Below, piece by piece: positions 26,362-35,644 of a DNA stretch of 64,000 nucleotides; within the stretch, counting starts at the first letter, position 1, and every line of letters begins with the position of its first letter. The DNA comes from Saccharopolyspora sp. NFXS83 (GTDB lineage Bacteria; Actinomycetota; Actinomycetes; Mycobacteriales; Pseudonocardiaceae). The stretch is from the NCBI RefSeq assembly GCF_026241095.1, contig NZ_JAPFGB010000009.1, positions 186,001 to 250,000 on the forward strand, given 5' to 3'. Below the pieces are notes generated by a model that was given only the letters and a program-made list of their open reading frames with translations, did no database searches and was not told where the DNA came from. A program made the translations under genes and the position numbers.

Positions 26362-26410
26362 GAGTGAACGGACCGTTCGTCCAATCCCGTTGGACGAACG
26401 GTCCGTTCAC
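26362..26410. repeat. Family A palindromic hairpin repeat, copy 6
   Basis: The cleanest copy: arms of 21 bases (GTGAACGGACC... / ...GGTCCGTTCAC) pair without mismatch around a five-base TCCCG loop. It starts 40 bp after the SMP-30 stop. Confidence 0.95.
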
Positions 26411-26464
26411 CCACTCCCATCGCCCCGGCGAACGCGAAGGGGCCCGCCCGCAGTGCTTGGGATG

Positions 26465-26514
26465 GAGTGAACGGACCGTTCATCCAATCTCGTTGGACGA
26501 ACGGTCCGTTCACT
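26465..26514. repeat. Family A palindromic hairpin repeat, copy 7
   Basis: As copy 6 with CATCC instead of CGTCC in the left arm and loop TCTCG. It is the middle copy in the convergent SMP-30/TauD gap. Confidence 0.93.
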
Positions 26515-26572
26515 TCTTCAGAACCCCTGGTCGACCACGGCGTGGCCGGAAGCGGAGAGCGCCGGACGGGTT

Positions 26573-26623
26573 GAGTGAACGGACCGTTCGCCCAGTCCGG
26601 TTGGACGAACGGTCCGTTCACTC
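26573..26623. repeat. Family A palindromic hairpin repeat, copy 8
   Basis: Arms GAGTGAACGGACCGTTCG / CGAACGGTCCGTTCACTC with core CCCAG-tccgg-TTGGA. It ends 10 bp from the TauD stop codon. Confidence 0.93.
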
Positions 26624-26632
26624 GAATCCGGG

Positions 26633-27493
26633 TCAGGATCGGGCGCGGAGGGTGGTGGCTGCGGAGTGGGCGCCGTCGTGGTGGGGCCAGCGGGGGGTAT
26701 CACCGGTGGGGGTGTCGCCGAGGATGGTGACGCGCTGGCCCACGCGTCGCTCCGCGTAGTCGTTGATCGCGTAGTGCTGGGTGGCGCGGTTGTCCCACAT
26801 GGCGATGGCCCCGGTCGTCCAGCGGAAGCGGCACACGTGGCTCGGGTGCTCGACGAGGGTGTAGAGGTGCCGCAGCAGCAGGTCGCTCTCGGTCGCGTCG
26901 AGCTGCGGGATGCGGCGGGTGAACATGCGGTTGACGTACAGCGAGCGCCGGCCCGTCTCGGGGTGCACCCGAACCACGGGGTGTTCGGCTTCGCTGCGGA
27001 ACGAGCCGTTGGGGTGCTCGAATACGTGGATCGCGGTGAGGCCGTCCAGCATTTCCCGCAGTGGTTCCGAGACCGCTTCGTAGGCGAGGTACTGGTTGCT
27101 CCACATCGTGTCGCCGCCGAACGGGGGGCATTGCACGATTTGCAGGATGGAGGCCACGGGCGGGGTGGGGCTGAAGGTGACGTCGGTGTGCCAGACGTCG
27201 GCCTTGGCTCCTTGCGCGGAATCGAGCACGACGATTTCGTCGTGCCCGTCCAGCTTCGGCAGGAAGGGGTGCACTTCGAGTTCGCCGAGGCGCTTGCCGA
27301 AGTCGATGTGCGCTTGCGGGCTGAGCCCGGCCGCCTCGGGGAAGAACAGCACGAGGTGTTCGAGCAGCAGCTCGTGGACCTGCTGGAAGGCCTGGTCGGA
27401 GAGGTCGTTCAGGTCGATGCCGCGGACCTCGGCGCCGAGTGCGCCGCTGATGGGGCGGACCTCCAGGTCGGTGTCCTGAATGGGAGCAACCAT
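26633..27493 (-). CDS. TauD/TfdA-family Fe(II)/2-oxoglutarate dioxygenase
   Basis: A 286-residue non-heme iron oxygenase. The iron facial triad is H102 and D104 in VWHTDVTFSPTPP and H240 in DNRATQHYAIND, with the 2-oxoglutarate-binding arginine in AERRVGQRV (about 250-254). It fits the TauD fold and length. Relatives cleave sulfonates such as taurine or modify natural products. It is divergent from the O-methyltransferase gene across a 239 bp shared upstream region and lies beside a terpenoid-like cluster, so a tailoring role is possible. No sulfonate ABC transporter is nearby, which weakens a taurine role. Confidence 0.88.
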   Translation of the reverse strand: MVAPIQDTDLEVRPISGALGAEVRGIDLNDLSDQAFQQVHELLLEHLVLFFPEAAGLSPQAHIDFGKRLGELEVHPFLPKLDGHDEIVVLDSAQGAKADVWHTDVTFSPTPPVASILQIVQCPPFGGDTMWSNQYLAYEAVSEPLREMLDGLTAIHVFEHPNGSFRSEAEHPVVRVHPETGRRSLYVNRMFTRRIPQLDATESDLLLRHLYTLVEHPSHVCRFRWTTGAIAMWDNRATQHYAINDYAERRVGQRVTILGDTPTGDTPRWPHHDGAHSAATTLRARS

Positions 27494-27732
27494 GATGACG
27501 ACCCTTTCTCGGTGGAACTGAGAACAATGCGCGTGCGGAATGGCGGATCAGCGATTCGAGTGCGCGCTGCCCGTGGTGGCGAAAATTCTTGACCCGCAAT
27601 GGAATGCGGTGCGATGCTCGCGGTGCCGGAATCGGTTTCCGGCGGCGATTTCCCCCTTGCTCTGAGTTCGCGCGGCGACGGCGCCCGCGGCATGAGCGCA
27701 CGCATTCGCAGCAGGAACAGGAGTGCACCAGT

Positions 27733-28743
27733 ATGGCTTCGGAGACCACGGATCCCGGCGCGCGGTTGGCGGCGCTGACCGATCTCGCCACCCCGTTCGC
27801 GGTGCGCGCGGCGGTGACGCTCGGCGTGCCGGACCGGATCGCGGAGGGCACCACGGGGCTCGCCGAACTCGCCGCGGCCACCGGGACGGACGCCGATTCG
27901 CTGGCGAGGTTGCTGCGGCACCTGGTGGCGATCGGGTTCATCGCCGAGCAGGGCGGCGGCTTCGCGCTCACCGACGTCTCCCGGCACCTGCTGGGGGAGG
28001 AGAGCGCCTGGCAGAAGAAGTGGCTGGCCCTGGACGGTCCGGGCGCGAAGATGGACCTGGCCTACGCGGGCATGGCGCATTCGGTGCGCACCGGCCGGTC
28101 CGGTTACGAGCCGGTGCACGGCGTGCCGTTCTGGGACGACTACCAGCGCGACGACGCCCTGCGAGGCTTCTTCGGCGCGATCATGGCCGCGCACGCCTGG
28201 CAGACCGGTCCGCTGCTGGCCGCCGAGTACGACTGGGCGCCGGTCAAGAACGTGATCGACATCGGTGGCGGGGTGGGGGCGCTGCTGGTCGAGGTGCTGC
28301 GCGGGCAGCAGCACCTGGAGGGTGCGGTGCTGGACCTGCCGCCGGTGGCCGCCGAGGCCGCGGAGGCGCTCGACGGGTCCGGGGTGCGCGACCGCGCCGA
28401 GTTCGTGCCGGGCAGCTTCTTCGACGAGCTGCCCGCGGGCTACGACAGGTACATCGTGTCGCGGGTGCTCACCGACTGGCCGGACGCCGACGCGGTGCGC
28501 ATCCTGCGCCGCTGCGCCGAGGCCGCCGGCAGCGGTGGCCGCGTCCTCGTGGTGGAGGTGCTGGCCGGGGAGGAGCACGCGAAGAACAACTCCTCGTTCG
28601 ACCTCCAGTCGTTGTCGCTGCTCGGCGGTCGCGAGCGGTCCGTGCGGGACTTCGAGGTGCTGGCCGCCGAAGCGGGCCTCGCGGTGCGCGGCAGCAGCAG
28701 CTGGGACGGCGGGCTGGTGCTCGTGGAGTGCGAAGCCGCCTAG
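27733..28743 (+). CDS. SAM-dependent O-methyltransferase (acetylserotonin/DnrK type)
   Basis: A 336-residue class I methyltransferase with an N-terminal winged-helix dimerisation domain (about 10-95: LTDLATPFAVRAAVTLGVPD, LARLLRHLVAIGF) and a SAM-binding domain with VIDIGGGVGALLVEVL (174-189). The segments RYIVSRVLTDWPDADAVRIL and the C-terminal helices match small-molecule O-methyltransferases of actinomycete pathways such as DnrK. ATG 27733 was preferred to an upstream in-frame start because it has CAGGAG nearby and gives the family N-terminus. It is divergent from the TauD gene and convergent with the FAD monooxygenase, 26 bp apart. Confidence 0.87.
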   Translation: MASETTDPGARLAALTDLATPFAVRAAVTLGVPDRIAEGTTGLAELAAATGTDADSLARLLRHLVAIGFIAEQGGGFALTDVSRHLLGEESAWQKKWLALDGPGAKMDLAYAGMAHSVRTGRSGYEPVHGVPFWDDYQRDDALRGFFGAIMAAHAWQTGPLLAAEYDWAPVKNVIDIGGGVGALLVEVLRGQQHLEGAVLDLPPVAAEAAEALDGSGVRDRAEFVPGSFFDELPAGYDRYIVSRVLTDWPDADAVRILRRCAEAAGSGGRVLVVEVLAGEEHAKNNSSFDLQSLSLLGGRERSVRDFEVLAAEAGLAVRGSSSWDGGLVLVECEAA

Positions 28744-28769
28744 CGGACCGCTCCCGGCCTGGGCGGCGC

Positions 28770-30029
28770 TCATGCCCAGGCCGGGAGCCGCCGGGCCCGC
28801 GGGTCGGGCAGCACTCCCACCTGGTGCAGCCGGTCGAGCAACGACAGCTGGTGCTGTCCGAGCCCGGCCATGTTGTGCATGACGGTGTAGCGCAGCCGGT
28901 CGTTGCCGCCGGTGAACCGCAGGGCGCGTCGCCCCACGACCCGTCCCGCCCAGGACAGGTCCGTGATCATCCGCGCCGCGTTGTGGCTCGTCTGCCCGAT
29001 GTGGACCAGCTCGGGGAGTCGTTCGGCCTGGTACGAGCGGATTCCCGCGTCCACCGAGGCGGCGGTGAGCTCGCCGGTGCCGAGGTGCCCGGCGAGGCTC
29101 TCGGCGTCGGTGATGGAGGTGTTCATGCCCTGCGCCGCCATCGGGTGCACCGCGTGGCCCGTCTCGCCGACCAGCGCCAGCCCCGGAATTCCCAGGCTGG
29201 GCGCGAGGAATCGGGACACCGGCAGCACCTGCCGGTTCGCCGCGCTCGCCCGCAGCGCATCGGCGAGCGGTTGCAGCGCGGGCGTGCCGAGCACCAGCCG
29301 CTCGATCCAGCGGGCCATGCCGTCCTCGTCGAGCCCGCGCAGCTCATCGGGCCGGACCTGCACGTAGAGGCGGACGCGCCCGCCGGGAAGCGGGTAGCGC
29401 AGCCGCAGCCCGAGTTCGCTCACGTACGCCGAGAAGTCCTGTTCGACCTGCGGCGCGTCGGCGATGTCGAACGCGGCCAGCCGGTGCGGGTACTCGTCGC
29501 GCTGCACGGCGATCCCGGCGGCCTTGCGCAGCCGCGACGAGAGGCCGTCGGCGGCGACGACGAGCTTCGCGTGCACGTCGCGCTCCTGCCCGCCTTCGCT
29601 GATCCGCACCCCGTCGACGCGGCCGGTGTCGTCGCGCAGCAGATCGCGCACGAGCACGCCGCGGCGGAACTCCACGGAGCCGTCGAGCCGGTCCGCCAGC
29701 GCCTCCAAGATCACGGGGTAGTCGTGGGCGAGCAGCCACCGCTCCTCGTCGCGCAGCCGCTCGTAGTCCAGCGCCATCAGCGGTGCCCCGCCCGAATCGC
29801 GCGCCACCAACCGCGCCAGCCGCAGCCCGCCGCGCAGTTCGAGCCGCTGCGCCACGTTCCAGTCCCGCAGCACCCGCAGCGCACCGGGTTGCAGCACCTC
29901 GCCCTTCGCCACCCGGGTCGGTTCGGCCTGCTTCTCCAGCAGCAGCACCCGGAAACCGCGAGTGCTCAGCGCGCAGGCCGCGGCGAGCCCGCCGACCCCG
30001 GCACCGCACACCACCACGTCGGCGTCCAT
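28770..30029 (-). CDS. FAD-dependent aromatic-ring monooxygenase (UbiH/PHBH type)
   Basis: A 419-residue flavoprotein hydroxylase or epoxidase. The FAD-binding motif is VVVCGAGVGGLAAACALSTR (GxGxxG at 9-14) followed by a conserved E in LLLEKQAEP. The second FAD motif near 280 is LALVGETGHAVHPMAAQGMN, with the usual Asp replaced by Glu. A VVAADGLSSRLRKAAG block gives the DG motif. Its ATG is one base into the stop of the preceding cyclase-like gene (TGATG) and has GGGAGGG upstream. It is the last gene of the five-gene operon; it could hydroxylate an aromatic head group or epoxidise a prenyl chain. Confidence 0.88.
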   Translation of the reverse strand: MDADVVVCGAGVGGLAAACALSTRGFRVLLLEKQAEPTRVAKGEVLQPGALRVLRDWNVAQRLELRGGLRLARLVARDSGGAPLMALDYERLRDEERWLLAHDYPVILEALADRLDGSVEFRRGVLVRDLLRDDTGRVDGVRISEGGQERDVHAKLVVAADGLSSRLRKAAGIAVQRDEYPHRLAAFDIADAPQVEQDFSAYVSELGLRLRYPLPGGRVRLYVQVRPDELRGLDEDGMARWIERLVLGTPALQPLADALRASAANRQVLPVSRFLAPSLGIPGLALVGETGHAVHPMAAQGMNTSITDAESLAGHLGTGELTAASVDAGIRSYQAERLPELVHIGQTSHNAARMITDLSWAGRVVGRRALRFTGGNDRLRYTVMHNMAGLGQHQLSLLDRLHQVGVLPDPRARRLPAWA

Positions 30030-31699
30030 CAGTCCCTCCCAGCGCGGTCGCGGTAGCGGGCGAGCGCGCGCAGCGCCAACCCGTTGGCCAGTGCCCGGTT
30101 CGAGTAGCGGGACACGTGGCGCACGTACTCGTTGACGGGGCCGGCCGGCCAGGAACCGTCGGCGCGGCGGGCGTCGACGAGCCAGCGCACGCCGCGCCGG
30201 ACCTCGGCGTTCTCGGTGCCCGAGCCCGCCACCAGCAGCGCGCCGACGGCCCAGGCCGTCTCCTCGACGGTGCCGGGCTCGTCGCCGCCGGTTCCCCAGG
30301 AGCCGTCGGAGAGTTGGGCGCGCACCAGCCAGTCCCGCGCCCCGCGCGCGGCTTCGGAGTCGCCCGCACCGGCGCGCACCAGCGTCTGCAGCACCGCCGA
30401 GGTGCCCGCCGTGTGCATCCGGTACCAGACGGATTCGTAGCTGCCGTCCGGTCGCTGCGCGCTCTGCAACCAGGTCACGGCCTTCTGGACGCGCGGATCG
30501 CTCGCGGGCACCCCGGAGTCCAGCAGTCCGTCCAGCGACTGCACCGTCATGTGCGGGCAGGGGCCGCTGTTGGCGACCTTCGTGTTCCGCACGCACAACC
30601 CCCACGAGCCGCGGGTGTCCTGCTGCGCGAGCAGCCAGGCCGCCCCGGCGTCCACGGCGGGCCGGTGCCGGTCGCCGGGGTAGCGCACCAGCGCGGACAT
30701 GATCTCGCCGGTCTCCAGCGAGGCGGGCCAGCCGCGAGCACCCGACCAGCCCCAGAAGCCCGGCGGGCAGCCGAACGCGGTGAACGGCCGGTCCTGCTGG
30801 TCGCGCAGGAAGATCTCGCGGGTCGCCAGCAGCCGCTCGTCGGTCGCGTACCCGGCCTCCAGCAGGCCGCCCGCCGCGTACATCGACCAGGTCAGCTCCA
30901 GCGGCCCGCTGTTCCACGAACCGTCGGCGTTGGCCTGCTCCCGGAACCAGCGCACCGCGCCCGCGACCATGTCCTCGCCGAGCCCGGCGCGCGCCAGGCC
31001 ACCGCAGATCAGGCCCGTCACCCAGGCGTCCTCGCACCAGCCGCCGGTGCTGCCCTCGTGCTCGTAGACCTGCCGGATGATCGACAGCGCGCGCGGGGTG
31101 CCCGCCTTCGCCAGCAGCCGGGTCAGCGGCGTCTGCTTGCGGTGCGCCGCCTGCGCCAGGCCGAGCGCGCACACCATCGGCGCCCGCAGGTCGAATAGCC
31201 GCTGGAACGGCCCGCGCAGCAAGGTCAGCTCCAACGGGAAGCGCCGCATCTCGTCGATTTCGAGCCAGCCGACGAACGAGTAGAACTGGCGGCACCACGC
31301 GGTCACCTCGGGATGCGGGATCGCCTCCAGCCCGCCGAACTCCCGCATCCAGCGCAGGCCCGCCGCGACCGCGTCCGCCGCGTCGTCCGGAGCGACCAGG
31401 TGCAGCGTCGCGGCGGCCACCGCCGTCGGGCCCGGCTCGTCCGGCTCACCGGGGATCATGCTCCAGCCGCCGCCGGGGGACTGCCGCTCGCGCAGCCACG
31501 CCACGCCCCGCTCGATCAGGTCCGCCGAACCGTGCGGATCGGCGAAGTGCAGCGCGCTGACCGCGCCCACCGTGCTCAACGTGGACGTCAGGCCGTCGCC
31601 GCCGTAGTCGAACACGCCGTCCGGCCGCTGCACGGCGAACACCGCCTCCGCCGCGGCGCCGATCACGCGGGAGATCTCCTCGGCCTGCAGGGTCGTCAT
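30029..31699 (-). CDS. Prenyltransferase/squalene-cyclase-fold protein lacking the DXDD motif
   Basis: A 556-residue alpha-toroid protein with about six QW-like repeats, such as SPGGGWSMIPG (75-85), ANADGSWNS (256-264), QDTRGSWGL (360-368), QRPDGSY (415-421), QLSDGSWGT (462-470) and RRADGSW (511-517). This is the two-barrel plan of squalene-hopene and class II terpene cyclases. By hand alignment, the catalytic PDVDDTAEVL segment of those enzymes corresponds to ASLETGEIMSAL (326-337), so the acid-bearing DXDD is absent. It may cyclise an epoxide through another acid, act as an unusual cyclase, or be non-catalytic. Its ATG overlaps the UbiA stop by four bases. Confidence 0.82.
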   Translation of the reverse strand: MTTLQAEEISRVIGAAAEAVFAVQRPDGVFDYGGDGLTSTLSTVGAVSALHFADPHGSADLIERGVAWLRERQSPGGGWSMIPGEPDEPGPTAVAAATLHLVAPDDAADAVAAGLRWMREFGGLEAIPHPEVTAWCRQFYSFVGWLEIDEMRRFPLELTLLRGPFQRLFDLRAPMVCALGLAQAAHRKQTPLTRLLAKAGTPRALSIIRQVYEHEGSTGGWCEDAWVTGLICGGLARAGLGEDMVAGAVRWFREQANADGSWNSGPLELTWSMYAAGGLLEAGYATDERLLATREIFLRDQQDRPFTAFGCPPGFWGWSGARGWPASLETGEIMSALVRYPGDRHRPAVDAGAAWLLAQQDTRGSWGLCVRNTKVANSGPCPHMTVQSLDGLLDSGVPASDPRVQKAVTWLQSAQRPDGSYESVWYRMHTAGTSAVLQTLVRAGAGDSEAARGARDWLVRAQLSDGSWGTGGDEPGTVEETAWAVGALLVAGSGTENAEVRRGVRWLVDARRADGSWPAGPVNEYVRHVSRYSNRALANGLALRALARYRDRAGRD

Positions 31700-32688
31700 G
31701 GCAGCGTCGCCTTCCGTTGTTCCATCGGGGGCGGGAACTCGTGGCCGGTGCGCAGCGCGGCCTGGGTGCTGAGGCTGAACACCAGCGCGGGCACCAGCAC
31801 CGCCAGCGCGATCCACGCGCCGGCGCCTCCCGCGATCAGCGCGGCCGTGAGGACCAGCCGCTCCGCGACGAGGATCTTGTGCGCCTGCAGCGCCTTCCGC
31901 GGCGGCAAATCGTCGACGTGCTCGAACAGCAGCGAGAACGCGGCCGTACCGGCGCAGGCCGCCAGCGCCGCCAGCAGGTAGTAGCCGGTCGGGTCCGGCA
32001 CGAAGTCCGCGGCTCCCAGCACGATCAGCATCGCCGCGGCGTACAGCCCGAACGACATCCGCACGGCGGTCCGGATCCCGCTGCGGACCGGCACCGACCG
32101 GTAGCCGCCCGCCCGGTCCCCTTCGACGTCGCGCATCGTGCCGACCAAGTTCGAGGCCGCGTCGTGCAGCAGGAGGACCAGCGCGAACACGGCGATCGTC
32201 CACGGCAACCGATCCGCAGCGAGCAGCGCGCCGACGGCCAGCGCCAGCGCGGTCAACGCGCCGCGCACCAGGTTCCCCGACAGGCCGCGCGCCTTGCAGA
32301 ACCTGCTGTAGGCGACGATGCCGCCGGTCGCGACCACCACCAGGACCAGCGCGTGCCAGTTCACCAGCAGCGTGAGCACCGTCGCCGCCACCGCGCACGC
32401 CACTCCGCAGACCACCGCGGTGCGCGCGGACAACCGGCCGGAGGGGATGGGGCGCTGCGACTTGTCGATGGCGTCCAGCTCGCGGTCGAAGTAGTCGCCC
32501 AGGTAGTGCCCGGACAGCCACCCCAAGGTCGGCACCACCACGGCCGCGATCACCTGCACGCCCCAGGTGCCACCGGCCAGCGCCGCGCCCGCCGAACCGA
32601 TCATGGCGGGATAGCAGGTCGTGTACGGCCGCCACGTCTCCACGTGCGCCCGGATTCCGCGGCGCAGCGCGGATGTCGACGCCGCCAC
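31696..32688 (-). CDS. UbiA-family membrane prenyltransferase
   Basis: A 330-residue polytopic protein (about nine helices) that should transfer a prenyl chain to an aromatic or other acceptor. The first Asp-rich motif is GHYLGDYFDRELDAIDKSQRP (read as D65, D68, D72) and the second is MRDVEGDRAGGYRSVPV (D187, D191), both intact for Mg-diphosphate binding. The acceptor cannot be deduced; short sequence features do not identify it as MenA, UbiA or a chlorophyll synthase type. Its GTG start is two bases after the polyprenyl synthase stop, and it overlaps the downstream cyclase-like gene by four bases. Confidence 0.86.
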   Translation of the reverse strand: MAASTSALRRGIRAHVETWRPYTTCYPAMIGSAGAALAGGTWGVQVIAAVVVPTLGWLSGHYLGDYFDRELDAIDKSQRPIPSGRLSARTAVVCGVACAVAATVLTLLVNWHALVLVVVATGGIVAYSRFCKARGLSGNLVRGALTALALAVGALLAADRLPWTIAVFALVLLLHDAASNLVGTMRDVEGDRAGGYRSVPVRSGIRTAVRMSFGLYAAAMLIVLGAADFVPDPTGYYLLAALAACAGTAAFSLLFEHVDDLPPRKALQAHKILVAERLVLTAALIAGGAGAWIALAVLVPALVFSLSTQAALRTGHEFPPPMEQRKATLP

Positions 32689-32690
32689 GG

Positions 32691-33716
32691 CTAGCGGTCC
32701 CGGTGGATCGCGAGGTCCGCCACCGCCGCGAGCAGCCGGGTGCCCTCCGCTCCGGGCAGCGCGCCGAGCTCGTCGTGCGCCCGGCGGATCTCGTCCTCGG
32801 CCTGCTCCGCGGCGTGCTCGACGGCGCCGAGGCGATCCAGGACTTCCCGCAGCAGCGCGAAGGACTCCGCGGGCGACCGGGTGCCGCTGAGCGCGTCGAC
32901 GAGGACCGCGCGGTCCCGGGGCCCCGCCATCCGGTGGCCCACGATCACCGGGAAGGTGGGGCGCATGTTGCCCGCGTCGCTGTCGGCGGACTTGCCTGTG
33001 ACGCTGCTGTCGGCCAGGTAGGGCAGCAGGTCGTCGCGCATCTGGAAGGCCGCGCCTACCCGCTCGGCGAACCGGGTGGCGGCCTCGACCTGCTCCGCGG
33101 TGCCGCCGCCGAGGAGCGCGCCCGATCGGCACGCCGCCCGGAACAGCGCGCCGGTCTTCAGCGCCGCCATCCGCCGGTACCGCTCCGGCGGGCATGCCGG
33201 ATCTCGCAAGAGTTCGGCTTCCAGCGCTTGTCCGCGGCAGAGGTCGACGCCCGCGACGGCGACCGCGCGCACCGCGCCCAGCACCGCCTCGGCGGGCAGC
33301 CCGCATTCGGCGAGAGTGTCGAACAGGCCCAGGATCAGCGCGTCGCCGGTGACGATGGCGTCGGCGACGCCGAACTTCGCGGGCACCGACGGTCGGCCGC
33401 GGCGCAGTTCGTCGCCGTCGATGATGTCGTCGTGCACGAGCGAAGCCACGTGCAGGTACTCGACGGACAGCGCCGCGGGCAGCACCGCCGCGCGGTCGCC
33501 GCCGACGGATTCCGCGGTGGCCACCAGCATCAGCGGGCGCAGCATCTTGCCCGGCGCGAGCAGCGCGTAGCGCGCGATGTCCCCGATGTGGTCGGTGCCG
33601 GCGGCCCAGCGGCGTTCCAGTTCGGCGCGGAGCTCGGCGGCGATGGGGGAGGCGGCGATGACGGCCTCGGGACCGGCGGCCAGGTCGTCGGCGGCGTCGG
33701 TGATCCGCGCGGTCAT
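32691..33716 (-). CDS. Trans-polyprenyl diphosphate synthase (GGPP-like)
   Basis: A 341-residue isoprenyl diphosphate synthase. The first Asp-rich motif is VHDDIIDGD (D96, D97, D100), and the residues four and five positions before it are small (S92, A91), which in this family allows chains of C20 or longer. The second motif is MRDDLLPYL (228-234), with Pro instead of the last Asp of DDxxD, as seen in some actinobacterial enzymes. KMLRPLMLVA is the substrate-binding start. The ATG overlaps the stop of the upstream aminotransferase by four bases. It presumably makes the chain used by the adjacent UbiA enzyme. Confidence 0.88.
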   Translation of the reverse strand: MTARITDAADDLAAGPEAVIAASPIAAELRAELERRWAAGTDHIGDIARYALLAPGKMLRPLMLVATAESVGGDRAAVLPAALSVEYLHVASLVHDDIIDGDELRRGRPSVPAKFGVADAIVTGDALILGLFDTLAECGLPAEAVLGAVRAVAVAGVDLCRGQALEAELLRDPACPPERYRRMAALKTGALFRAACRSGALLGGGTAEQVEAATRFAERVGAAFQMRDDLLPYLADSSVTGKSADSDAGNMRPTFPVIVGHRMAGPRDRAVLVDALSGTRSPAESFALLREVLDRLGAVEHAAEQAEDEIRRAHDELGALPGAEGTRLLAAVADLAIHRDR

Positions 33717-34726
33717 CGGGTCGGCTCGCTCTGCTCGGCCGCGAATTCGGCGGCGACCTTGAGCACCAGGTCGTTGACCTCCGCGGTGCCGACGGTCAGG
33801 CGCACCCCGGCCTCGGCGGTCACCCGCAGGACGATGTCGTGGGCGGCGCACAGGTGGACGAACCGGGAGCTCTCCGCGCCCAGCGGCAGCCACAGGAAGT
33901 TCCCGCCGCTGGCCGGAACGGCGAATCCGCAGGCCAGCAGCCCGTCGCGGAGCCGGTCGCGTTCGGTGGCGACTTCCGCGCACTGGCGGCGCATCACCTC
34001 GGTCGCGTCGAGCGCGGCCACCGCCGCGGCCTGCGCGGGGGCGCTGACGCGGAAGAACAGGGCGCTCGGTTTCAACGCCGCGAGAATCGATTCGGGGGCG
34101 AGCAGGTATCCGACGCGCAACGCCAGCAACCCGTAGGACTTGGAAAAGGTCCGGGCGACCGTCACCCGCTCGTCCGTTCGGGCTAGTTCGAGCCCGTCGG
34201 CAATCGAACCGGTCTCGGTGAAGTCGATGTAGGCCTCATCGATCACGATGTGCACGTCCTGCGGAACCCGGTCGAGGAATCGCGTGATCTCGCCGGCGCT
34301 GAGCACCGTTCCGGTCGGATTGTTCGGATTGCACAGCAGCACCACCCGAGTCCGTTCGGTGATCGCGGCGGCCATCGCGTCCAGGTCGTGGGCGGCGTCG
34401 CGCAGCGGCACGCCGACCGCGGTCGCACCGGCGTTGCCGATCATCAGCGGGTACATCTCGAACGACGGCCACGGGTGCACCACTTCGGCGCCCGGACCGG
34501 CGTGGACCTGGAGGAACTGCTGCAGCAGCGCGCCGGAGCCGACACCGGCCAGCACCTGCCCGGCGGGCACGCCGTGGTGCTCGGCGATCCGCCGGACCAG
34601 TCCGGTGGAGAACGGGTCCGGGGTGAGGTTGAGTTCTCCGAGGGTCGCTTCGGCGGCTTCTCTGACGCCAGGCAGCGGGGGAGCGAAATTCTCGTTCAGA
34701 GAGAGCTGGTGCGCAATTGAGGTCAC
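33713..34726 (-). CDS. HisC-like PLP-dependent aminotransferase
   Basis: A 337-residue class I/II aminotransferase of the histidinol-phosphate type. The N-terminal LSLNENFAPPLPGV matches the LNENP-G-P motif of HisC, LLCNPNNPTGT binds substrate and PLP, VIDEAYIDF follows, and K196 in RTFSKSYGLLALRVGY forms the Schiff base. It lacks his-operon neighbours and is the first gene of the terpenoid-like operon, so it may act on an aromatic keto acid or an amine substrate of that pathway rather than in histidine synthesis (inference). The GTG at 34726 gives the family N-terminus; the longer frame upstream is low-complexity. Confidence 0.85.
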   Translation of the reverse strand: MTSIAHQLSLNENFAPPLPGVREAAEATLGELNLTPDPFSTGLVRRIAEHHGVPAGQVLAGVGSGALLQQFLQVHAGPGAEVVHPWPSFEMYPLMIGNAGATAVGVPLRDAAHDLDAMAAAITERTRVVLLCNPNNPTGTVLSAGEITRFLDRVPQDVHIVIDEAYIDFTETGSIADGLELARTDERVTVARTFSKSYGLLALRVGYLLAPESILAALKPSALFFRVSAPAQAAAVAALDATEVMRRQCAEVATERDRLRDGLLACGFAVPASGGNFLWLPLGAESSRFVHLCAAHDIVLRVTAEAGVRLTVGTAEVNDLVLKVAAEFAAEQSEPTR

Positions 34727-35644
34727 AGTGCCATTCCCGTTCTGGCCGCTGGATGTTATGCCCCCGCGCGGTGCCCGCCGGTTTCGGGCCGACCCGCTCG
34801 TGATGCTCGTCGAATACTGAGTTCCGCGTGCGTGCGGTGTCAAGGACGCGTTCAGCTCGGAACGTAATCATCGTGTTTCGCATTGATTCCGGTCGTTTTT
34901 TGAGGGAATTCCCTGAACGTTCTGTGGCAGTGCGCTGCGGGGCGTCGGACGGGGTGGCCTGTGCTACCCCGCGCCGCGCGGTGCGAGGTGCGTTCCGGCG
35001 CCCGCGCGCGTGCGGGGCGCGCGGCGGCCGGCTGAGAGGGGGTCGCGCCGCGGGTTGCAACTGATCTGTGATCTCGGCTGATGTCGCTGGTCAGCGCCGC
35101 TCTAGCCCGAGTAGTTCAACGCGCTTCGAGGCAGGCTCCCCCGAACGGCTCTGGAATATTCCATCGGTCGTTCGGTACACCGGAACCCAGCGCGCTCGCC
35201 GCAGCGGCAGTCGGGGTCGGGTGGGCGCGCTTGCCACGGTCCGGGGACCGGTGGTTGAGCCGCGGCCGGCGGGAGTACTGGTCGCGGTCGGTCCGCGGCC
35301 TCGGTGCGTTCGGGGCGTGCCGGGGCCGCGGACCGGTTTCCCCGTTCTTCCCAGTGGGGCTCCTCCCGTATTCGTTCCATTCCGCGCGCCGCCACATCCG
35401 CGGAAAACCGCCGACCGGGCGAATCGTGGATTGTCGAACAATCACTGTGAAAACGGCAAATACCGGCACTTTTGGGTCGAATGTCGTTCCGCTTATGGTG
35501 CGAACAGTTTCCTCTTGGCAGCGGGGCGGGCACCGGCCCGTTTCGTGGAGGAGCCGGGACCGAATCGGCGCGCTCCGGTTCACCCGACAACCGACGACGT
35601 CCGGGCCGCCCCATCGCCCCGGACTCGAGATCGAGGAGATCAAG
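34727..35644. other. Long divergent intergenic region
   Basis: This 918 bp gap separates the aminotransferase start from the trypsin start. It is less GC-rich than the genes around it, with AT-rich patches near 34855-34910 and 35425-35470 that suit promoters. A perfect dyad GATTGT-cga-ACAATC lies at 35429-35443. Open frames through the gap have no family resemblance or start signals. It probably carries the promoters of the terpenoid operon and the protease. Confidence 0.5.

Follow-up and report, generated by a model that had tools for sequence, protein, structure and literature searches.

The 64,000-nucleotide stretch of DNA analysed here (Saccharopolyspora sp. NFXS83, contig NZ_JAPFGB010000009.1, positions 186,001 to 250,000; hereafter the window) contains seven genes that we judge, with reasonable confidence, to be the core of a diterpenoid pathway of the brasilicardin/phenalinolactone type, in its aminotransferase-bearing (brasilicardin) form and without the decorating genes. 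The product is probably a tricyclic terpene joined to an amino acid and not a compound of unknown kind. This reading is based on gene content, homology, shared gene order, co-variation, intact motifs and clade membership, all computed here. The genes, each assigned to its family by a Pfam match above cut-off, and the block that they form are as follows.

AT, 33713-34726, minus strand: pyridoxal phosphate (PLP) aminotransferase of the HisC2/phenylalanine-aminotransferase (Rv3772) type; Pfam Aminotran_1_2, 3.7e-50
PPS, 32691-33716, minus strand: polyprenyl diphosphate synthase; Pfam polyprenyl_synt, 1.9e-54
UbiA, 31696-32688, minus strand, GTG start: UbiA-family prenyltransferase; Pfam UbiA, 1.1e-35
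CYC, 30029-31699, minus strand: squalene-cyclase-type class II cyclase; Pfam SQHop_cyclase_C, 1.9e-27, also SQHop_cyclase_N
FMO, 28770-30029, minus strand: UbiH/squalene-epoxidase-like flavin adenine dinucleotide (FAD) monooxygenase; Pfam FAD_binding_3, 4.3e-32, also SE
OMT, 27733-28743, plus strand: DnrK-like O-methyltransferase; Pfam Methyltransf_2, 9.9e-37, also Dimerisation
TauD, 26633-27493, minus strand: Fe(II)/alpha-ketoglutarate dioxygenase, PlaO1/Bra0-like; Pfam TauD, 1.4e-61
26415-35043: block absent from the same-genus genome G002, which has 270 bp in its place; blastn of L170

The open reading frames (ORFs) of all seven genes are intact. AT and PPS share 4 bp, a gap of 2 bp separates PPS from UbiA, and the UbiA/CYC and CYC/FMO overlaps are 4 bp and 1 bp, so that translational coupling of a five-gene operon AT-PPS-UbiA-CYC-FMO is plausible; OMT converges on FMO with 26 bp between them, and TauD and OMT are divergent with 239 bp between them. 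When one genome per species (84,980 species) was scanned with CYC as query, a scan that detects close relatives only, all seven genes were present in 15 of 15 loci. The hosts were Nocardia, Streptomyces, Saccharopolyspora, Amycolatopsis, Lentzea, Pseudonocardia, Crossiella, an unclassified actinobacterium and a metagenome-assembled genome titled Melainabacteria, probably a wrong label; the last locus (L051) was scored as present though its CYC frame is broken, a stop dividing the match into two pieces. Gene order differs among loci, CYC-AT being split from PPS-UbiA-FMO in some and AT lying last in others, but the set stays together. A search of 200 relatives gave, among the matches listed, 29 genomes with a CYC match at E<=1e-100, the window's own included. 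For 36 distinct loci with seven full-length genes (identical CYC sequences being counted once, and proteins with an in-frame stop or less than 80% of the query length being left out), the distance matrices of all 21 gene pairs correlated with r of 0.87-0.96, a level that was not attained for any pair in 999 permutations. The conserved unit is seven genes, i.e. the five-gene operon with the convergent OMT and with TauD, not five. An earlier reading of this DNA from its letters (the sequence-only reading) had placed the genes, strands, coordinates and domain families correctly to the base, in agreement with Pfam, and had proposed one coupled operon of five genes, which the overlaps and short gaps bear out. 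It had also left it to be checked whether the operon recurs or is an accident of linkage; the recurrence in 15 of 15 scanned loci shows that the linkage is real, but OMT and TauD, there treated as neighbours of a five-gene unit, belong to the conserved set.

Comparison with known clusters

The brasilicardin A cluster of Nocardia terpenica (bra0-bra12; BGC0000632) is a known system of this kind. According to passages of two reports (PMC7837296, PMC12185567), brasilicardin consists of a tricyclic diterpene with an attached amino acid side chain; bra1-bra6 build the core, and bra0 and bra11 serve methoxylation, with bra0, which is divergent from bra1-bra11, encoding the dioxygenase behind the C16 methoxy group, while bra7-9 are presumably responsible for 3-hydroxybenzoate and bra10 is assigned to rhamnose. 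The compound is described, in the abstract of the second report (PMC12185567), as an immunosuppressant lead now obtained by semisynthesis. Among 150 Nocardia genomes, four had a UbiA match at E<=1e-15. The Nocardia locus L164 (genome G1201) has the order TauD (61%, divergent), AT (48%), PPS (53%), UbiA (48%), CYC (43%), FMO (50%), cytochrome P450 (P450), PapA-type acyltransferase, GT2-like protein (below the Pfam cut-off) and OMT (50%), and is thus 43-61% identical to the window gene by gene. L164 has the bra outline minus two genes, with three genes between FMO and OMT versus five by the published bra numbering. In the window, as in L164, AT, PPS, UbiA, a class II cyclase and an FAD monooxygenase are encoded together, and from the layout we infer that they correspond to bra1-5; TauD and OMT are also present and, by analogy with the roles that the papers give to bra0 and bra11, would be the methoxylation genes. 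Judged from the published layout and L164, the window therefore shares with brasilicardin the dioxygenase, the core genes and the methyltransferase, and differs in that OMT and TauD lie downstream of FMO, whereas TauD adjoins AT there. Passages of other papers report a Nocardia arthritidis strain that keeps nine of the 13 bra genes with order and orientation unchanged (PMC12153302), name brasilicardin A as the prediction for Lentzea fradiae CGMCC 4.3506 (PMC9120177), describe a terpene cluster weakly similar to brasilicardin in ant-associated Pseudonocardia (PMC5183585) and give a 30% brasilicardin match in two 'Sps.' species (PMC12187853). L164 may be that N. arthritidis locus, and L047 is a seven-gene locus of L. 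fradiae CGMCC 4.3506.

The best PDB match of TauD is PlaO1 (7qtd, 355 bits; next chain 218). Matches to PlaO1 at E<=1e-60 were found in 16 of 392 Streptomyces genomes, one at 99% identity, three at 82-88% and twelve at 57-61%. In the locus with the 99% match, taken as the phenalinolactone (pla) locus, the counterparts of UbiA (48%), CYC (39%), FMO (48%) and TauD (56% over 271 residues) are contiguous and in the same order as in the window, which thus contains the UbiA-CYC-FMO-PlaO1 block of the phenalinolactone type. The pla locus differs in that the 40 kb read contain no AT and no OMT match and its PPS match (35%) lies apart; its cyclase, like CYC, lacks the middle acid of the DXDD motif, with FLDSA versus LETGE in the window. 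AT was found in none of the four PlaO1-type loci (33-40 kb read around each). For the twelve genomes with 57-61% matches it was present in ten of the eleven loci read, the eleventh starting at a contig end just before CYC.

A tree of UbiA, CYC and FMO from 55 loci contains a clade of 48 (support 1.00) to which the window, L164 and all AT-bearing loci of the tree belong. AT was detected by script in 47 of these; in L063, the 48th, a partial AT lies at a contig end. The four PlaO1-type loci, without AT, form a separate clade (support 1.00), which is joined by L070, a locus with neither AT nor TauD. The window thus falls in the same clade as the bra-like locus, and both its AT and its clade set it apart from the phenalinolactone type. 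Presence of AT coincides with the branch of the bra-like locus, for which the known product type is an amino acid, and phenalinolactone belongs to the AT-less branch, although the link from branch to product is anchored by only two characterised products. In the AT tally, L063 and L108 were scored as without AT though both have a partial AT at a contig end, and L157 starts at a contig end.

Some relatives have other arrangements. In L057, L058, L059 and L060, a CYC-AT pair stands separate from a PPS-UbiA-FMO-OMT-TauD block; L058-L060 have two full-length ATs, one per part, and the AT next to CYC in L057 is a fragment. The Streptomyces loci L150-L153 and L158 have a one-strand run AT-PPS-UbiA-CYC-FMO-TauD followed downstream by much the same set of unrelated-looking genes, and because no OMT match was found in 19 kb we would predict an unmethylated product for them.

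Properties of the cyclase

CYC has a squalene-cyclase domain (SQHop_cyclase_C as above; PDB squalene-hopene cyclase (SHC), 4e-17) and differs from a canonical class II cyclase of the SHC kind at the DXDD motif, in place of which stands WPASLETGE, with L328 aligned to residue 376 of SHC 3sqc, the middle acid of DXDD. Hopanoid or squalene cyclisation was considered as a function of CYC and dropped, as DXDD is missing and the best PDB match, to SHC, scores 65 bits. In all 49 AT-bearing loci, Glu occupies positions 329 and 332, and 328 is Leu, Met or Val; PlaO1-type loci have FLDSA. An acid is kept in L072 (ETEDTA) and in L111-L114 and L116-L119 (ESEDTA). FMO lies alongside 56 of the 59 aligned cyclases without an acid at 328, versus one of the ten with an acid (Fisher p 3.7e-8, relatedness ignored). 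Loss of the DXDD middle acid together with presence of FMO fits a switch from alkene protonation to epoxide opening. The three non-acid cyclases without FMO are those of L108, which ends with its contig, L065 and L066. The last two loci are bra-type clusters with no FMO match, the epoxide-type motif LESAE and ORFs of 613-630 amino acids in the P450 group, which are possible replacement epoxidases. In L115 and L166, related cyclases with NSGNTG have no acid at 328 or 329 and an adjoining FMO (41% and 38%, respectively). L120 (G085:C1:3451036-3452644) is a second CYC copy, in a genome that also has a full-length one, with OMT (57%) adjoining; it splits into two matches (query 12-209 and 213-553) and may be broken.

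Properties of the other enzymes

AT scores 375.7 bits against PRK03321 (cut-off 374), the sole NCBIfam cut-off passed among the matches listed for the seven proteins, and its best PDB match is 4r2n, a putative phenylalanine aminotransferase (246 bits; next 124). K196, which by motif we take to be the PLP lysine, is kept in 47 of 47 aligned sequences. The genome has elsewhere one relative of AT at 45% and one HisC-like protein at 34%, and AT is accordingly a separate copy. A role in primary histidine biosynthesis was dropped in view of these two proteins and of a score of 234.7 bits against the hisC equivalog (cut-off 276.55). An aminotransferase of the phenylalanine type would suit an alpha-keto acid whose beta substituent is large and hydrophobic. 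All 62 aligned PPS sequences keep the three Asp of DDIID as well as DD in the second motif, and in the PPS of the window the residues at -4 and -5 of the first motif are S and A; small residues there fit products of C20 or longer. The best curated NCBIfam models for UbiA, both below cut-off, are PRK12884 and the archaeal-type geranylgeranylglyceryl phosphate (GGGP) geranylgeranyltransferase, and every Asp of GDYFDRELD and RDVEGDR is kept (66/66). G9, G11 and G14 of FMO (57/57), which is the protein 48% identical to the FMO adjoining PlaO1, and HxD of TauD (50/50) are likewise conserved. OMT has as its best PDB match the O-methyltransferase 3i53 (268 bits).

Proposed pathway and alternatives

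The pathway that we propose from these data is inferred throughout, from the substrates and the sequence of steps to the ring system and the end product. PPS would make geranylgeranyl diphosphate (GGPP), UbiA would join the geranylgeranyl chain to a pyruvate-type C3 unit to give a C23 alpha-keto acid, FMO would epoxidise the terminal double bond, and CYC, its DXDD acid lost, would open the epoxide and close a hydroxylated perhydrophenanthrene. TauD would then hydroxylate the C3 unit at its beta carbon, and OMT would methylate the beta-hydroxyl in a Bra11-like role, both functions being proposed because of those of bra0 and bra11. Lastly, AT would convert the terpenyl alpha-keto acid to an alpha-amino acid, a role suggested by the distribution of AT, which occurs in the amino-acid branch but not in the lactone branch. 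The end product would be a diterpenyl amino acid of the brasilicardin type that lacks P450, sugar and acyl decoration. More tentatively, the seven genes might be a free-standing, vertically kept cassette for an undecorated diterpenyl beta-methoxy-alpha-amino acid, the gain of AT having split the UbiA/cyclase family into amino-acid and lactone branches. To our knowledge, diterpenyl beta-methoxy-alpha-amino acids are known only from the brasilicardins and their aglycones. If the proposal is correct, the block would offer a seven-gene route to a brasilicardin-like core and a small system in which to study both the attachment of a terpene to a non-aromatic unit by one UbiA clade and the opening of an epoxide by a cyclase after loss of the DXDD acid. 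A rule for reading such loci is suggested as well, AT present indicating an amino acid and AT absent a lactone, which rests on only two characterised pathways.

The sequence-only reading had envisaged chain synthesis to C20 or longer, UbiA transfer, oxidation and cyclisation in a set of genes that it did not recognise as a known pathway. Its chain length agrees with the small residues of PPS, and its logic fits the order named in the title of a phenalinolactone paper, 'sequential prenylation, epoxidation, and cyclization'. The genes are not, however, an undescribed combination, since UbiA-CYC-FMO-TauD are collinear with phenalinolactone, and AT-PPS-UbiA-CYC-FMO with the dioxygenase and OMT fit the brasilicardin outline. 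The guess that AT modifies a nitrogenous head group comes close to the amination proposed above; the aromatic head group also suggested finds no support in the two nearest characterised pathways, although the zigralone precedent considered below leaves room for it.

Several points weigh against the proposed pathway. No sequence evidence points to the acceptor of UbiA, for which the pyruvate-type C3 unit is a proposal; Durr et al. in 2006 are reported to have found pyruvate to be the precursor of the phenalinolactone lactone. PPS is a putative GGPP synthase, with products of C20 or possibly longer. The correspondence with bra rests on layout, on the Nocardia locus L164 as a proxy and on the reports of others, not on bra protein sequences, and between FMO and OMT L164 falls two genes short of the published bra numbering. 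We have equated the published L. fradiae prediction with L047, although the passage concerned gives no coordinates (PMC9120177). In a review passage (PMC5618424), a squalene-monooxygenase homologue of the phenalinolactone cluster is believed to epoxidise the terminal olefin of GGPP itself, and the steps would then follow another order. The gene-pair permutations and the Fisher test are uncorrected for relatedness or shared species ancestry. Finally, AT is closest to an aromatic aminotransferase and would also fit an aryl-pyruvate acceptor, as in zigralone.

This last point is the basis of an alternative that we consider improbable, in which the product is an aromatic meroterpenoid: AT would convert an amino acid to an aryl pyruvate (indole-, phenyl- or hydroxyphenylpyruvate), the ring of which UbiA would prenylate, FMO and CYC would epoxidise and cyclise, and OMT would methylate a phenol or the beta carbon. 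AT is indeed nearest to phenylalanine aminotransferase, and in the zigralone cluster (zig) of Micromonospora zingiberis an aminotransferase, a polyprenyl synthase and UbiA (ZigA-C) are proposed to assemble prenylated indolepyruvate from L-tryptophan; in that system a transaminase of the host took over for ZigA. Compared by description, zig resembles the window in these three genes and in epoxidation followed by cyclisation, and differs in having a Pyr4-like membrane cyclase, a P450 epoxidase, a thiamine pyrophosphate (TPP) enzyme and an indole head group. When the seven genes and the eight ORFs flanking them were scanned with Pfam, no TPP enzyme and no DUF6875 came up, and the same AT sits in the brasilicardin-like layout, the product of which bears an amino acid. 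A search for a zig-type cluster to compare found none: in 160 genomes of the genus of G133 there were nine weaker UbiA matches (26-30%), and none of the eight surroundings read out of the nine had an adjoining AT or PPS match.

A phenalinolactone-like gamma-butyrolactone diterpenoid, in which TauD would start lactone formation on the C3 unit and AT would have a side role or supply a different keto acid, has in its favour the identity of TauD to the dioxygenase of the PlaO1 locus and the common order UbiA-CYC-FMO-TauD. It is rendered less likely still by AT, which was not found in the 33-40 kb read around each of the four PlaO1-type loci yet is present in the clade of the window. That the genes are unlinked and together by chance, or are a decaying cluster, we find hardly credible; a close same-genus genome (G002) lacks the whole block, but the seven frames are open, the catalytic residues are conserved, the seven genes recur in every scanned locus with co-varying sequences, and both G001 and the more distant G003 have the block at this site, which makes its absence from G002 read as one clean loss. 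The atolypene and tiancilactone clusters are other bacterial terpenoid systems that we liken to the window by description only, and the idea that the window is one of them was dropped; review passages and reference titles present the tiancilactones as found by mining atypical type II diterpene synthases and as close analogues of phenalinolactones.

Decorating genes

The P450, PapA-type acyltransferase and GT2-like genes of L164, and the P450 and glycosyltransferase groups of other relatives, had no tblastn match in the 64 kb window (E<=1e-4); as a control, the same queries recovered their P450, acyltransferase and GT2-like genes in L164. The lack of matches to glycosyltransferases, acyltransferases and P450s of the relatives' kind suggests that the window is a minimal member of the brasilicardin/phenalinolactone kind. 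The acyl-transfer and rhamnose-transfer genes of a complete brasilicardin A cluster, and a P450 like that of L164, were thus not found in the window, a 3-hydroxybenzoate synthesis gene not having been searched for. By tblastn, 29 of the 38 distinct seven-gene loci have a P450 match and nine have none (the window, L039, L040, L041, L043, L053, L054, L055 and L109), the stretches read outside the window being of ~12-22 kb so that a P450 further off would be missed. Gene maps from the ORF caller served for orientation only, as starts were mis-set and genes missed or fused, UbiA, CYC and FMO of the window among them. A literature search gave no description of this seven-gene set as such, weak evidence of absence since key papers lay outside its coverage.

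Presence and absence of the block

The block is flanked by an SMP-30-like gene and a trypsin-like gene, both of which were found in five of five same-genus genomes searched. In G002 these flank genes are less than 1 kb apart. By blastn of L170, the G002 DNA matches the window up to 26414 (88.7%) and resumes at 35044 (88.6%). The flank genes of G003 (79% and 92% identity) are more distant from those of the window than are those of G002 (88% and 94%), and because G003, like G001, carries the block at this site, a single loss in G002 is the simplest account. In G004 and G005 there is no close CYC match and the two flank genes lie ~21 kb apart. No integrase was present among the ORFs scanned around the block, target duplications not having been searched for, and no relatives were found among 72,556 plasmid records at E<=1e-30.

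A palindrome of ~47 bp with GTGAACGGACCGTTC half-sites occurs in three copies between the SMP-30 gene and TauD (26364-26410, 26467-26513 and 26575-26621) and in others elsewhere. With at most one mismatch, the window contains 27 half-sites (shuffled mean, 0.00) and the whole genome 312 (reversed control, 0). Counts for the five other genomes of the genus run from 166 to 381. The left edge of the block (26414) lies just past one copy of the palindrome, and one copy is retained at the empty site of G002.

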